Assembly (NCBI GenBank): GCA_002238865.1
Contig: MPNE01000001.1
Span: forward strand, 1-64,000
Source of the DNA: Gemmatimonadetes bacterium bin94
Lineage (GTDB): Bacteria > Gemmatimonadota > Gemmatimonadetes > Longimicrobiales > Gaopeijiaceae
Direction: 5' to 3'
Length of the DNA stretch: 64,000 bases
Shown here piece after piece: positions 40,606 through 50,371 of the stretch (position 1 is its first letter; each line of letters opens with the position of its first letter). The notes beneath the pieces are model-generated. The model was not told where the DNA came from. It did no database searches and was given only the letters and a program-made list of their open reading frames with translations. A program made the translations under genes and the position numbers.

Positions 40606-40678
<73 letters not shown>

Positions 40679-40726: not shown

Positions 40727-40798
<72 letters not shown>

Positions 40799-43490: not shown

Positions 43491-44090
43491 ATGGCTCACA
43501 TACGGTACGCATCCCCCGCGGAAGCGGGCTCGGAACTGGCCGAGCTTTACGCGCGTTACGCCGACCGGGCGGGGAACCTCGACAACATTCTCCGGATACA
43601 TTCCCTCAACCCACCTTCGTTGGAGCATCACTACGACCTCTATCGCCACCTCATGGCCGGGCCCTCCCCGCTGTCGCGGCAGCAGCGCGAGATGATCGCG
43701 GTCGCGGTGTCGGCCGAGAACGACTGCTTCTACTGAATTAACCACCACGGAGCGGGCCTCCGTCGTCTGACCGGCACGGCCGACCTGGCGAATGCGCTCG
43801 CCAGAGGCCGGCGGCCGGACTTGCTCACCGACAGGGACACGGTCATGCTCGACTACGCCGTCAAGCTGACCCGGGATCCGGGGGGAATGACCGCGGACGA
43901 TGTGGAGGCGCTGCGGGAAGCCGGCTTCGGCGACCGGGCGGTCCTCGACATCTGCCAGGTGGTGTCCTACTACAACTACGTGAACCGTCTGGCCGACGGC
44001 CTCGGAGTCGAACTGGAGGAGGAGTGGAGCGATGCGGACCATACCATGACCCGGGACGAATTCGACGCGCAGCGGGACACCTCCCCGTGA
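43491..44090 (+). CDS. AhpD-family peroxidase-like selenoprotein (CxxU; UGA at codon 82)
   Basis: 199 residues if the in-frame TGA at 43734-43736 is read as selenocysteine. The first part ends REMIAVAVSAENDCFY, then TGA, then INHHGAGLRRLTGTADLANA, continuing in the same frame to DGLGVELEEEW and a normal stop. Carboxymuconolactone decarboxylase/AhpD 'peroxidase-related' proteins have CFYCxxHHG here, so Sec replaces exactly the second catalytic Cys, giving C79-F-Y-U82 with His at +4 (H86) as in AhpD. Similarity is continuous on both sides and total length fits. A SECIS-like hairpin follows. Probable role: thiol/selenol peroxide reduction. The stop overlaps the hutH GTG. Alternatives: a nonsense mutation or a base error. 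Confidence 0.82.
43744..43766 (+). promoter_or_regulatory. Candidate bacterial SECIS hairpin
   Basis: Stem ACGGAG (43747-43752) with CTCCGT (43758-43763), loop CGGGC; beyond a C-C mismatch, AC (43744-43745) pairs with GT (43765-43766). The apical loop begins 16 bases after the UGA and has G at its second position. Both fit the general bacterial SECIS model recognised by SelB (short stem just after UGA, loop with an early G). The exact energy and specificity were not computed. Confidence 0.6.
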
Positions 44091-45757
44091 TCACGGTCGA
44101 CGGACACGGGCTGACCCTCGCGGAGGTTGAAGCGGTGGCGGTCGGCGGCGCCCAGGTCCGGCTGCACGAAGACGCCGCGGCACGGATACGCCGCTCGCGA
44201 AGTCTTCTCGACCGCCTCCTCGAGGGAGACGCCCCCGTGTATGGCGTGAACACCGGTTTCGGGCGGCTCGCCGACGTGCGCATCTCGCGTGACGATCAGT
44301 TCGCGCTCCAGCGAAACCTGGTGAGGAGCCACGCCGCAGGGACCGGCCGCCCCCTCCCGGACGCGGAGGTGCGCGCAATCCTGCTTCTCAGGGCCAACAC
44401 CCTGGCCCGGGGACAGTCCGGGTGCCGCCTGGTCGTGGTCGAGCGTCTGCTGGAGCTGCTCAACCGCGCCGTCCACCCCGTCGTGCCCGAGATCGGGTCT
44501 GTGGGCGCGAGCGGCGACCTGGCCCCGCTCGCCCACGTCGCCCTCGCGCTGACGGGAGAGGGCAGGGCCGTAGCCGACGGCAGGGAGGGTGACGCCGGGC
44601 GGCTCATGGGCGCGGCGGGGATCGCACCGCTGCAGCTTGCCGAGAAGGAGGGCCTGGCGCTGGTCAACGGCACCCAGGCCACCACCGGGATCGGGATCCT
44701 GGCAGTGGGGCGCTTCGGCCGCGCGCTCGAAACCGCCGATGTGGCTGGCGCCATGTCGCTGGAAGGGGTGCGCGGGTCTCCCGCCCCCTTCCGCGCCGAA
44801 ATACACAATGCGCGGCCGCACCCGGGCCAGATCGCCAGCGCGCGGCGCCTGAGGGCGTTGCTGGAGGGCTCGGAGATCCGCGAGTCGCACAGGGAAGGGG
44901 ATACGCGCGTCCAGGATCCCTACTCGCTCCGCTGCATGCCGCAGGTCCATGGGGCCGCCCGCGAAGCGTACGGGTACGCGAGCCGCATCCTCACAACGGA
45001 AGCGAATTCGACCACGGACAACCCGCTTGTTCTGGCCGACGGGGGCACCGACGGTGAAGTCGGCGCGGATTCGTCCGGCGGCCTGGTCGTGAGCGGCGGC
45101 AACTTCCACGCGCAGGTGGTTGCGCAGAGCCTGGACCTCGTCGCCATCGCGGCGGCCGACCTGGCCTCGATCTCGGAACGGCGGACCGACCGGCTCCTCA
45201 ACCCCGACCTTTCCGGCCTGCCCGCCTTCCTGACCCCCGACCCCGGAACCCGCTCCGGCCTCATGATCGTCCAGGTTGTCGCGGCCGACGCCCTGTCGGA
45301 GATGCGCGTCCTCGCCAACCCCGCCAGTTCGGACTCGGTTCCCACCTGCGCTTCTCAGGAAGACCACGTCTCCATGGGGATGGCCGCGGCGAGAAAGCTT
45401 CGCCGAAGCATGGAGCTGCTGGAAATCGTTCTGGCGGTCGAGATTCTCTGCGCCGCGCAGGCCGTGGAGTTCCACCGGCCGTTGCGCGCCGGGCAGGGCG
45501 TGGAGCGAGCGCTGAAAACGGTGCGCGATCGTGTAGCCCGCCTCGACGAAGACAGGATCCTCGGGGGTGACATCGAGATCCTTCGCGACCTGGTGGCTGC
45601 GGGCGCGTTTGCGGAACAGGATGCGGCCGCGGCGCAAGCCGAGGCGGCCGCTGCACAAGCGGTCGCTGCCGCTGGGCAAGCAGCCGCTGCCGCCGCACGA
45701 GCCGACGCAGCCGCTGCACATTCCGACGCTTCCTCTCCCGCCGGCGAGTCTCGATAA
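44087..45757 (+). CDS. hutH: Histidine ammonia-lyase
   Basis: 556 residues from GTG overlapping the selenoprotein stop (GTGA). MIO-forming triad Ala-Ser-Gly at ~141-143 in GSVGASGDLAPLAH; also VYGVNTGFGRLADV, NGTQATTGIGI, EANSTTDNPLV and QEDHVSMGM. Converts histidine to urocanate. The core ends near residue 510; a further ~45 residues form an Ala/Gln-rich tail (AAAAQAEAAAAQAVAAAGQA and onward), unusual for HutH. First hut enzyme, with hutU 12 bp on. Confidence 0.96.
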   Translation: MITVDGHGLTLAEVEAVAVGGAQVRLHEDAAARIRRSRSLLDRLLEGDAPVYGVNTGFGRLADVRISRDDQFALQRNLVRSHAAGTGRPLPDAEVRAILLLRANTLARGQSGCRLVVVERLLELLNRAVHPVVPEIGSVGASGDLAPLAHVALALTGEGRAVADGREGDAGRLMGAAGIAPLQLAEKEGLALVNGTQATTGIGILAVGRFGRALETADVAGAMSLEGVRGSPAPFRAEIHNARPHPGQIASARRLRALLEGSEIRESHREGDTRVQDPYSLRCMPQVHGAAREAYGYASRILTTEANSTTDNPLVLADGGTDGEVGADSSGGLVVSGGNFHAQVVAQSLDLVAIAAADLASISERRTDRLLNPDLSGLPAFLTPDPGTRSGLMIVQVVAADALSEMRVLANPASSDSVPTCASQEDHVSMGMAAARKLRRSMELLEIVLAVEILCAAQAVEFHRPLRAGQGVERALKTVRDRVARLDEDRILGGDIEILRDLVAAGAFAEQDAAAAQAEAAAAQAVAAAGQAAAAAARADAAAAHSDASSPAGESR

Positions 45758-45769
45758 GGACGATCCGAC

Positions 45770-47455
45770 ATGCAGCCCACCACGACGCGCTCCACCGCAC
45801 CCGCATCCGGTCCCCGGACCGTCCTCGCGCCGCGCGGCACCACGCTCAGGTGCAAGGGCTGGACCCAGGAAGCCGCGCTCCGCATGCTCATGAACAACCT
45901 GGATCCGGCGGTCGCCGAGCAGCCGGACGAGCTGGTGGTCTACGGCGGCACCGGCCGGGCCGCGCGGAGCTGGGCCGCATTCGACGCCATCGTCTCGGCC
46001 CTGGAGCAGCTGGAGGGCGACGAAACCCTCCTGGTTCAGTCCGGCAAGCCCGTCGGGGTCTTCCGCACGCACCGGCATGCCCCGCGGGTGTTGATCGCCA
46101 ACTCGAATCTGGTGGGCCGCTGGGCCACCTGGGAGCACTTTCACGAGCTGGAGCGCCAGGGGCTGATGATGTACGGTCAGATGACCGCCGGTTCGTGGAT
46201 CTACATCGGGACGCAGGGGATCCTCCAGGGAACGTACGAGACCTTCGGCGCCATGGCGCGGAGGCACTTCGGCGGGTCGCTCTCCGGCCGATGGATCCTC
46301 ACAGGCGGCATGGGCGGCATGGGCGGCGCACAGCCGCTCGCGGCCACGATGAACGGCGCAGCCATCCTGGTGGTCGAAGTCGACCCCGAGCGGATCCGGC
46401 GCCGGATCGAGACGCGCTACTGCGACCGCATGACCGACGACCTGGACGAGGCGTTGGCGTGGCTGCGGGAGGCGACCGAAGCGGGGCAGGCGGTTTCGGT
46501 GGGGCTGGTGGGGAACTGCGCCGATGTCCTCCCCGAGCTGAACCGGCGCGGGATCACCCCCGATATCGTGACCGACCAGACCTCGGCCCACGACCCCGTG
46601 GACGGCTACGTGCCTTGCGGTTTCTCGATCGATGAGGCGTCCGTCTTGCGAAAGCACGATCGAACCGAATATCGCTTGCACGCGATGGCGTCGATCCGCA
46701 GGCACTGTGAAGCCATCGTGGAGATGACCAGGCGGGGTGCTATCGCGGTCGACTACGGCAACAACCTGCGCGGCTATGCGCACGAGGCCGGCTTCGAGGA
46801 CGCGTTTTCGTATCCGGGCTTCGTTCCCGCGTACGTCCGCCCCCTCTTCTGCCTCGGCAAGGGCCCCTTTCGGTGGGTCGCGCTGTCGGGCGACCCTGCC
46901 GACATCCACCGCACCGACGACCTTGTGCTGGACATGTTCCCCCGGGACGAACACCTCTGTCGCTGGATCCGCATGGCGCGCGAGCAGGTAGCTTTTCAGG
47001 GGCTTCCTGCGCGGATCTGCTGGCTGGGCCAGGGGGAGCGGGCGCGCTTCGGCGTCGCCATGAACGAACTGGTCGCCAGCGGCGAGGTCAGCGCTCCCAT
47101 CGTGATCGGGCGCGACCACCTGGACACGGGGTCGGTGGCGTCGCCGTACCGCGAGACGGAGGGGATGAAGGACGGGACCGACGCGGTCGCCGACTGGCCC
47201 GTCCTGAATGCGCTGCTGAACACCGCCTCGGGGGCGAGCTGGGTGTCGTTTCACCATGGGGGCGGCGTGGGGATCGGGGACTCGCTGCACGCGGGCCAGG
47301 TGCTGGTTGCCGACGGAACGCCGGAGATGCGCACCCGGATCGAGCGCGTGCTGACGAACGATCCGGGGCTGGGGGTGGCCAGGCACGCGGACGCGGGGTA
47401 CGAGGCCGCGCAGGCGACGGCCCGGGAGAAGGGGGTCAGGATCCCGATGGGGTGA
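45770..47455 (+). CDS. hutU: Urocanate hydratase
   Basis: 561 residues. Typical blocks: [40 protein letters not shown], the NAD-binding [15 protein letters not shown] (~177-191), [14 protein letters not shown] and [16 protein letters not shown]. Converts urocanate to imidazolonepropionate using tightly bound NAD. Second gene of the hutHU unit. Confidence 0.97.
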
Positions 47456-47495: not shown

Positions 47496-49025
47496 CTATG
47501 TTCGCGCCCCCAGCCCCTTCACGGCCGCCGTGAACGCGCGCCCGACCTCCTCCTCACGTGCATGGCGGCCGGACTGCACCACCCAGTTGCCACCCACCAT
47601 GACGTCCCGCACCGGGTTGTCGGTCCCGGAGAACAGCCACGAGTCGAGCACGGCGCGGCCGCCGCGCCCGGCCAGCGCCGGATGTTCCGCGTCCAGGACC
47701 ACCAGGTCCGCCCGGGCGCCGACCTCGACGCGGCCTCCGTCCCACGCCAGCGCCCGGCATCCTCCGTCCCACGCGTGCTGCAAGAGCGTGCCACCGGCTC
47801 CGGCGAGCGCACCCCCGGCTTCGGCGAGCACACCGTCTCCCGGCCCGTTCGCCCCCGTGGATGTCTCGGCGACCCGCCCCCCTCCCGTGCCGGACGCGCG
47901 CTTCCGCGCCTTCAGCACCGACCGGGTCCGGCACACCAGCCGCTGCCCGTAGTCCAGGAGGCGCAACTCCTCCACCGGGCTACGCGACACGTGGCTGTCG
48001 GTCCCGATCGCGAACCTTCCTCCGAGCGCTGCAAACGCCCCCAGCGGGAACAGTCCGTCCCCGAGGTTCGCCTCGGTCGTCGGGCACAACCCCGCCACCG
48101 CCCCCCGCCGCACGACCCCGGCTACCTCGGCATCGCTGACGTGCGTGCCGTGAACCAGGCACCACCGCTCGTCGACGGGGGCGTGGTCCAGAAGCCACTC
48201 GACCGGCCGCGCCTTCCGGTCGGCCAGACAGTCCCGCACCTCCTTCTCCTGCTCGGCCACATGGATGTGCACCGGCGCTTCGCCTGCCGCGGCCGGCCCG
48301 GCTCCCCCGGACACGAAGTCACCGAAGCGCGCGAACGACTCGCGCGAAACCGCCCGCAAGCTGTGTACCGCCCACCCCAGCTGCACGGGGGACGCGGACG
48401 GGCCCGGACGCGCGGACTCCACGTGCCGCGATCCCTCCCCGCCGAGTGCCGCGTGCAACCGCGCCGCCCCCTCCAGGTCCATCCGGAAGCGCCGTTGGCT
48501 CCCCGCCAGCGCCTCGCCGCCGAAGCCGCCCGTCTCGTACACCACGGGCATGTGTACCAGGCCGATCCCCGTGGCACGCGCCGCGGCAATGACCCGTCGG
48601 CTCATCTCGGCTGGATCGTCGTAGGCACCGCCGTCCGGCCGACGGTGCAGGTAGTGGAACTCGCCGACGCAGGTGAAGCCCGCCTTGAGCATCTCGACGT
48701 ACAGTTGGGCCGTGACCGCCTCCACGTCGTCTGGCGTGAGGTGGCGGAGGAACGCGTACATCGCCTCGCGCCAACTCCAGAACGAATCCGGCCCGCCCCC
48801 TTCGGCGAGCCCCGCCAGGGCGCGCTGGAACGAATGGCTGTGCACGTTGGGCACCCCGGGAACCGTCCACCCCGCCACCGTTTCGCATCCGCCGTTGCTG
48901 CCCGGCTCCACCGACAGGATGCGGCCGCGCTCGTCCACCGCCACGACTGCGTCGCGCTGCCAGCGGTCCCCGATCAGGAGTCGTTCGAAGCGGAACCTGT
49001 GGCGTGGGCGAGCCCTTGGCGGCAT
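47496..49025 (-). CDS. hutF: Formimidoylglutamate deiminase HutF
   Basis: 509 residues, amidohydrolase fold. VPGVPNVHSHSFQRALAGL (~56-74), FTCVGEFHYLHRRPDGGAYD, HIHVAEQEKEV (~253), HGTHVSDAE and FAIGTDSHVSRSPVEELRLL (Asp ~343) mark HutF. It deiminates N-formimino-glutamate to N-formyl-glutamate, so histidine is degraded by the five-step route ending in formate and glutamate. A ~40-residue Gly/Ala-rich insertion at ~370-410 (ETSTGANGPGDGVLAEAGGA) is unusual. It faces hutHU and diverges from hutI. HutG, the next enzyme, is not in the window. Confidence 0.92.
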   Translation of the reverse strand: MPPRARPRHRFRFERLLIGDRWQRDAVVAVDERGRILSVEPGSNGGCETVAGWTVPGVPNVHSHSFQRALAGLAEGGGPDSFWSWREAMYAFLRHLTPDDVEAVTAQLYVEMLKAGFTCVGEFHYLHRRPDGGAYDDPAEMSRRVIAAARATGIGLVHMPVVYETGGFGGEALAGSQRRFRMDLEGAARLHAALGGEGSRHVESARPGPSASPVQLGWAVHSLRAVSRESFARFGDFVSGGAGPAAAGEAPVHIHVAEQEKEVRDCLADRKARPVEWLLDHAPVDERWCLVHGTHVSDAEVAGVVRRGAVAGLCPTTEANLGDGLFPLGAFAALGGRFAIGTDSHVSRSPVEELRLLDYGQRLVCRTRSVLKARKRASGTGGGRVAETSTGANGPGDGVLAEAGGALAGAGGTLLQHAWDGGCRALAWDGGRVEVGARADLVVLDAEHPALAGRGGRAVLDSWLFSGTDNPVRDVMVGGNWVVQSGRHAREEEVGRAFTAAVKGLGART

Positions 49026-49129
49026 GGACGTTCCTCACGATCGGATTTGCGAATCGGCGCGGTTCGATGCATCAATCTGGCTGCTGTCCCTCAATTTCGC
49101 TTCAACCGCGCGGCCGCGCGAACGACCCA

Positions 49130-50371
49130 ATGCCTCATCCCCGCTGGGACCGAATCTGGACGGACGTCAACCTCGCGACCATGACCGACGCGTCGCTGGG
49201 CATCATCGAGGACGGGGCGATCGTGAGCACCGGCGGGCGCATCGCGTGGGTCGGGCGACGGGCCGACCTGCCCGAGGCCGGGAAGCGGATGGCGGGCGAC
49301 ATCATCCGCTGCGGTGGCGCCTGGCTCACCCCCGGGCTGATCGACTGCCATACGCACATTGTCTTCGGGGGCGACCGCAGCGGTGACTTCCGCCGCCGGC
49401 TACGGGGTGAATCGTACGGCGACATCGCGAGGGCGGGCGGGGGCATCATGTCGACAGTCCGCGCCACGCGCGACGCCTCGAACGAGGAGCTGACCGTGCG
49501 CGCCGTCGCCCGGGGAGCGGAGTTGGCGGCCTGGGGTGTCACCACGATCGAGGTCAAATCCGGCTACGGCCTCGACCTGCCGACCGAACTGCGGATGCTG
49601 GATGTCGCCGCCGGGCTTGCCGACCATCTCCCCGTGGACATCTCGCCCACCCTGCTCGCCGCCCATGCGATCCCGCCCGAGTACGCGGGGCGGCGGGCCG
49701 GCTACGTCCGGCTGGTCATCGACGAGATCATCCCCGCGGCGCTGGAGCAGGGCCGCGCGACGGCCGTGGACGTCTTCTGCGAGGACATCGCCTTCACGCC
49801 GGCCGAGTCGCGCGCGATCCTCGAAGCCGGGATCGGGGCGGGGCTGCACGGCCGCCTCCACGCGGACCAGCTCTCGGACCTGGGCGGGGGCGCGCTGGCC
49901 GCCGCCGCGGGAGCCCGCTCGGCAGACCATGTGGAGTACCTGTCGCGAGACGGGGTGCGAGCCATGGCGGCAGCGGGTGTGTGCGCGGTCCTCCTCCCCG
50001 GTGCCGCCTACACCCTGGGGGCGGACCGCAGGCCGCCCGTCGGCACGCTGCGGCAAGCCGGCGTGACGATGGCGCTGGCCACTGACGCGAATCCCGGGTC
50101 ATCGCCCATCACGAACGTCGGCGTGATCCTGAACCTGGCGTGCATCCTTTTCGGACTCACCCCGGAAGAGGCCCTGTTCGGCTTCACAGCCGCCGCGGCC
50201 CGGGTTCTCGGCCTGGAAGCGGACCGCGGCACCCTCCAGCCGGGCAAGTGGGCCGACCTGGCCCTGTGGAACGTGCGTGACCTGGCGGAGCTGTGCTACT
50301 GGGTGGGCGCGAGCCCCTTGCGGTCGCTGGTCAAGCACGGGGTTCCCCGTGCCTTGGGGCAATCGATGTAG
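49130..50371 (+). CDS. hutI: Imidazolonepropionase HutI
   Basis: 413 residues. GAWLTPGLIDCHTHIVFGGDR (metal HxH), ESYGDIARAGGGIMSTVRAT, VKSGYGLDLPTELRML, LHGRLHADQLSDLGGGALAA and TMALATDANPGSSP (Asp ligand). Opens the imidazolone ring to N-formimino-glutamate, the HutF substrate. ATG 49130 gives the usual N-terminus (WDRIWTDVNLATM); no strong ribosome site. 104 bp of promoter space lies between it and the divergent hutF. Confidence 0.96.
   Translation: MPHPRWDRIWTDVNLATMTDASLGIIEDGAIVSTGGRIAWVGRRADLPEAGKRMAGDIIRCGGAWLTPGLIDCHTHIVFGGDRSGDFRRRLRGESYGDIARAGGGIMSTVRATRDASNEELTVRAVARGAELAAWGVTTIEVKSGYGLDLPTELRMLDVAAGLADHLPVDISPTLLAAHAIPPEYAGRRAGYVRLVIDEIIPAALEQGRATAVDVFCEDIAFTPAESRAILEAGIGAGLHGRLHADQLSDLGGGALAAAAGARSADHVEYLSRDGVRAMAAAGVCAVLLPGAAYTLGADRRPPVGTLRQAGVTMALATDANPGSSPITNVGVILNLACILFGLTPEEALFGFTAAAARVLGLEADRGTLQPGKWADLALWNVRDLAELCYWVGASPLRSLVKHGVPRALGQSM

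Follow-up and report, generated by a model that had tools for sequence, protein, structure and literature searches.

CxxU AhpD-like selenoproteins have been catalogued from metagenomes since 2005. In the Sargasso Sea survey of that year, they belong to COG2128/TIGR01926 and are represented by 27 sequences (PMC1088965), and in the table of the 2008 GOS survey, the family termed 'AhpD-like 1' is the fourth most numerous, with 299 sequences (PMC2398784). The initial annotation of the locus described here had stated that such enzymes are known from metagenomes; it mentioned neither TIGR01926 as a catalogued selenoprotein family nor the linkage of the gene to hutH. A catalogue from 2026 also lists the AhpD-like selenoprotein under TIGR01926 (PMC13188914). 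The bacterial SECIS (bSECIS) model given in that catalogue comprises a stem of 4–16 bp, a loop of 3–9 nt with a G within the first two loop positions, and a spacing of 16–37 nt between the UGA and the loop (PMC13188914). The window analysed here is a stretch of 64,000 nucleotides from Gemmatimonadetes bacterium bin94 (contig MPNE01000001.1, positions 1–64,000). Its segment 43491–44090 is almost certainly an intact selenoprotein gene, situated at the head of the hut operon and encoding an AhpD/CMD redox enzyme, in which UGA82 would be read as selenocysteine (Sec) by means of a downstream hairpin.

Reading frame, redox motif and fold

The gene is located on the plus strand, extends from the ATG at 43491–43493 to the TGA stop at 44088–44090, and encodes a CxxU AhpD-like (TIGR01926, peroxidase-related) protein of 199 aa. 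A single internal stop, the TGA at 43734–43736, interrupts this frame, and translation with TGA as U runs from MAHIRY through NDCFY-U82-INHHGAG to the terminal TSP. Gene calling with translation table 11 yields two separate ORFs, 43491–43736 (81 aa) and 43821–44090 (89 aa, with a TTG start). The protein read through the TGA matches TIGR01926 (peroxid_rel) over residues 6–175 with 144.9 bits, well above the curated cut-off of 81.8 bits, whereas the two halves taken separately reach 46.0 and 79.1 bits, both below it. The Pfam CMD family is a further match of the read-through protein. The initial annotation had described one frame broken only by this TGA, split by automatic annotation and belonging to the peroxidase-related/AhpD family, and the translation, the table 11 calls and the family scores bear this description out.

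The redox motif CFYUINHH occupies codons 79–86 (43725–43748, plus strand) and reads C79-F80-Y81-U82-I83-N84-H85-H86, with the putative Sec82 at the second position of the CxxU unit. The arrangement C79-x-x-U82-x-x-x-H86 is found as originally proposed, and 40 homologues show no variation at C79, Y81, residue 82 or H86. The AlphaFold2 model, built with Cys at position 82, has a mean pLDDT of 95.3 and adopts the all-helical AhpD/CMD fold, carrying the CxxU unit and the His. The best PDB matches of the model are 3c1l, 2pfx and 6k40, and it also matches 2prr and 2oyo; all five are peroxidase-related AhpD proteins. Judging from the family, the product is most likely a thiol/selenol-dependent hydroperoxidase or disulfide reductase, in which Sec82 would attack the peroxide, or the disulfide of a partner, and Cys79 would act as the resolving residue.

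Selenocysteine machinery, codon conservation and hairpin

The host genome, with 83 contigs totalling 4.42 Mb and a completeness of 97.5%, contains the complete Sec machinery. The selA gene lies at C22:321828 (487.9 bits), selB at C22:98727 (306.6 bits, above its cut-off) and selD at C34:18385 (388.4 bits). The tRNA-Sec gene (selC) is located at C22:132539–132631 with 79.7 bits, its anticodon TCA is seen in the sequence, and it is the only one of ten matches in the host genome that reaches the gathering score. All four components had been predicted from the window alone to lie elsewhere in the genome. The selD gene (G000:C34:18385–19308, L113) is itself a selenoprotein gene: codon 11 of its match is an in-frame TGA, and the motif reads HGAGUACK.

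Orthologues with 54–80% identity were drawn from 121 genomes of the same bacterial family. In all 54 orthologue loci examined, which come from many assemblies, the aligned codon is TGA and codons 1–180 are otherwise free of TAA, TAG and TGA, a pattern beyond chance. A related locus is also found on the public record JAJDXM010000050.1, the group of which is given as Gemmatimonadetes, and TGA forms are again common elsewhere in the phylum. In a set of Cys outgroup sequences, the codon is TGC or TGT in 13 of 13 loci. The tRNA-Sec gene was found in 63 of the 72 genomes with the TGA form versus one of the 12 with the Cys form only (Fisher p = 9.6e-8, uncorrected for relatedness). The mixture of TGA, TGC and TGT named by the initial annotation as a check is therefore present among the relatives, with the Cys forms mostly in genomes without tRNA-Sec; meanwhile, the frame damage downstream of the TGA that it had named as refuting evidence is absent, and pN/pS against the orthologues is similar before (0.17–0.47) and after (0.20–0.37) the codon.

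The correspondence between codon and tRNA has exceptions on both sides. Searches for tRNA-Sec returned no match in nine genomes with the TGA form (G003, G012, G028, G054, G059, G071, G090, G101 and G107); several of these genomes are MAGs with missing parts, but completeness reaches 93–96% in G012, G028 and G054. In these three, which carry the TGA-form loci L021 (G012), L109 (G028) and L077 (G054), the tRNA may be absent from the assembly, or the system may be decaying. Conversely, G076 and G419 are Cys-form genomes that do have tRNA-Sec. The Cys forms of G227, G277 and G383 occur in genomes without it, and G412 could not be aligned at this position. A maximum-likelihood tree nests the G227 Cys form (L115, G227:C49) in the Sec clade, within a five-row group supported at 100/99 and with its own pairing at 99/73; because of this position, it likely represents a Sec-to-Cys reversal.

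A putative bSECIS hairpin is situated at 43747–43763 on the plus strand, with the stem strands ACGGAG (43747–43752) and CTCCGT (43758–43763) enclosing the loop CGGGC (43753–43757). Its 6-bp stem, 5-nt loop with G at loop position 2, and 16 nt from the TGA to the apical loop agree with the published model. A generic bSECIS rule is passed by 34 of the 262 TGA positions in the window and is not significant alone, and the hairpin, taken in isolation, has no stability advantage over shuffled sequences (z +1.2). Stability and the generic rule were hence dropped as stand-alone evidence, and synonymous constraint was used instead. Among 141 scored columns in the 54 orthologues, codons 88, 90, 91 and 86 rank as the four most constrained. 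His86 is CAC in all 54, while the adjacent His85 is divided between CAC (28) and CAT (26). Gly87 is GGA or GGG in 54 of 54 and never GGC or GGT, as pairing with the opposing U requires. Furthermore, Ala88 is GCG throughout, Leu90 is CTC in 52 and Arg91 is CGT in 46. In the Cys outgroup, the columns of codons 86–91 are unconstrained and mostly unpaired, and at the same site, the G227 revertant reads CACGGTGGCAACCTCCGC, which interrupts the pairing. A formal covariation count for the hairpin of the window gene gave one-sided variation, one side of every pair hardly varying. This conserved candidate bSECIS, absent from the initial annotation, adds independent evidence for the Sec reading. Insertion would proceed as ribosomes reach UGA82 and SelB carrying Sec-tRNA(Sec) binds the hairpin, which begins 10 nt downstream, after which translation would run on to the real stop, UGA200; Sec insertion by SelB and this hairpin is very likely the route employed.

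A second TIGR01926 AhpD-like gene with an in-frame TGA exists in the same genome at G000:C66:4001–4492 (L091:3974–4555, minus strand). Like the window protein, its product belongs to TIGR01926 and has a CFYU motif, and the gene has its own bSECIS-like hairpin with a CGGG loop. The paralogue differs from the window protein in that its clade is 39–45% identical and reads UTQAHAHDL in place of UINHHGAGL. Its hairpin, GACCTC-CGGG(NN)-GAGGTC, is placed 8 nt further downstream than that of the window gene. One compensatory change from C-G to U-A is seen in six closely similar sequences of this clade, a result matched by 36 of 500 shuffles. The CGGG loop common to both hairpins suggests a single recognition rule for SelB. 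The 2–4 kb examined around the paralogue contained no hut genes.

Linkage to the hut genes and alternative readings

Downstream of the selenoprotein gene, hutH (histidine ammonia-lyase, 44087–45757, plus strand) begins with a GTG that overlaps the TGA stop by 4 nt (GTGA). It is followed on the same strand by hutU (urocanate hydratase, 45770–47455), then by hutF (formimidoylglutamate deiminase, 47496–49025) on the minus strand and by hutI (imidazolonepropionase, 49004–50371) on the plus strand. The family match of hutI begins at residue 68 of the ORF, so its true start is probably further downstream than 49004. In a count made by hand, from which one species-duplicate record and one locus cut by a contig end were excluded, the selenoprotein gene is immediately followed by hutH in 46 of the 53 orthologues that could be assessed, leaving seven without an adjacent hutH. 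The 4-nt NTGA overlap recurs in 37 of the 46 adjacent pairs, across more than a dozen genera. Among the loci compared, the neighbouring gene on the other side is conserved only between genera that are closely related. In the window, this is a large, divergent gene for a choice-of-anchor B family protein (TIGR04312; 40882–43425, minus strand), which adjoins the selenoprotein gene only in close relatives; on its 3' side, two neighbouring tRNA genes are located at 40606–40678 and 40727–40798. No hut genes were found beside Cys forms or forms from other families. The selenoprotein gene is the first gene of a hut operon, hutH is probably translationally coupled to it, and a functional link between the selenoprotein and histidine breakdown may be inferred. 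A pathway that requires the selenoprotein gene is ruled out by the presence of hutH in many relatives without that gene.

The simplest rival to the Sec reading, a pseudogene or a sequencing or assembly error, would need only one change from TGC or TGT to TGA and would account for the two broken ORFs of table 11, the 3' part being a decaying remnant. Such an origin is hardly credible against an identical TGA with no further stop in all the orthologues from many assemblies, against pN/pS values after the TGA like those before it, and against the unusual synonymous conservation of codons 86–91 downstream. If UGA had been reassigned in the lineage, with Trp or Cys, for instance, inserted in place of Sec, in-frame TGA would likewise be seen in conserved genes; such a reassignment is opposed by the complete Sec system of the genome, by the use of TGA as the gene's own stop, by the lack of another in-frame TGA in codons 1–180 of the 54 orthologues, and by homologues that carry Cys, not Trp, and its probability is similarly negligible.

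The overlap with hutH allows UGA82 to be viewed mainly as a regulated stop, at which Sec insertion would gate the translation of coupled hutH and the enzyme itself would be unimportant, since with the NTGA overlap in 37 of 46 pairs, hutH initiation could depend on passing UGA82. Purifying selection after the TGA and the invariant catalytic residues indicate that the full protein matters, and together with the seven orthologues lacking hutH next door and the many relatives having hutH without the selenoprotein gene, they render this view very unlikely. The reading of an intact selenoenzyme gene is preferred. A further conceivable reading is that selenium gates histidine catabolism: hutH, perhaps with hutU, would be made well only with selenium, and the selenoenzyme may also act in or protect the pathway. 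Ribosomes failing to insert Sec at UGA82 would drop off approximately 350 nt upstream of the hutH start, and because hutH starts inside the selenoprotein stop codon, its output would be tied to selenium. Such control of histidine catabolism by selenium is unlikely. The conserved hutH overlap opens a direct way to test whether histidine breakdown is tied to the supply of selenium.

Comparison with known systems

Structurally, the window protein shares 28–38% identity and a TM-score of about 0.8 with 3c1l (Mesorhizobium Mlr4105), 2pfx, 2oyo, 2prr and 6k40 (D. radiodurans AhpD). In 3c1l and 2pfx, the two that were aligned at the site, a Cys occupies the position of Sec82. A literature search on D. 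radiodurans AhpD returned no papers. NF041238 (AhpD_rel_CFYUT) has the CFYU active-site string in common with the window protein and is homologous over residues 29–190; however, it is a family of 357 positions compared with 199 aa here, and membership was rejected at 65.3 bits, below the curated cut-off of 175.

A search of the open-access literature for a Gemmatimonadota selenoproteome, or for selenoproteins encoded within hut operons, yielded nothing relevant, and the hut linkage of an AhpD-like selenoprotein may accordingly be undescribed. AhpD-like enzymes with Sec are widespread in this Gemmatimonadota family, frequently as a pair in one genome, and table 11 calling splits their genes. 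The family also provides an unusually clean natural experiment, in which the Sec or Cys form, the presence of tRNA-Sec and the constraint on the hairpin largely change together.

The window selenoprotein itself is not new in kind, its exact family (TIGR01926) having been catalogued since 2005, and to specialists it would be expected. As far as the relevant entries of the three sources describe it, the AhpD-like selenoprotein (PMC1088965, PMC2398784, PMC13188914) corresponds to the window protein in its TIGR01926 membership, CxxU motif, single Sec and downstream bSECIS. The window gene differs from those catalogued in its host, a member of the little-studied phylum Gemmatimonadota, and in leading a hut operon with its stop codon overlapping the start of hutH, two features that the same entries do not mention.
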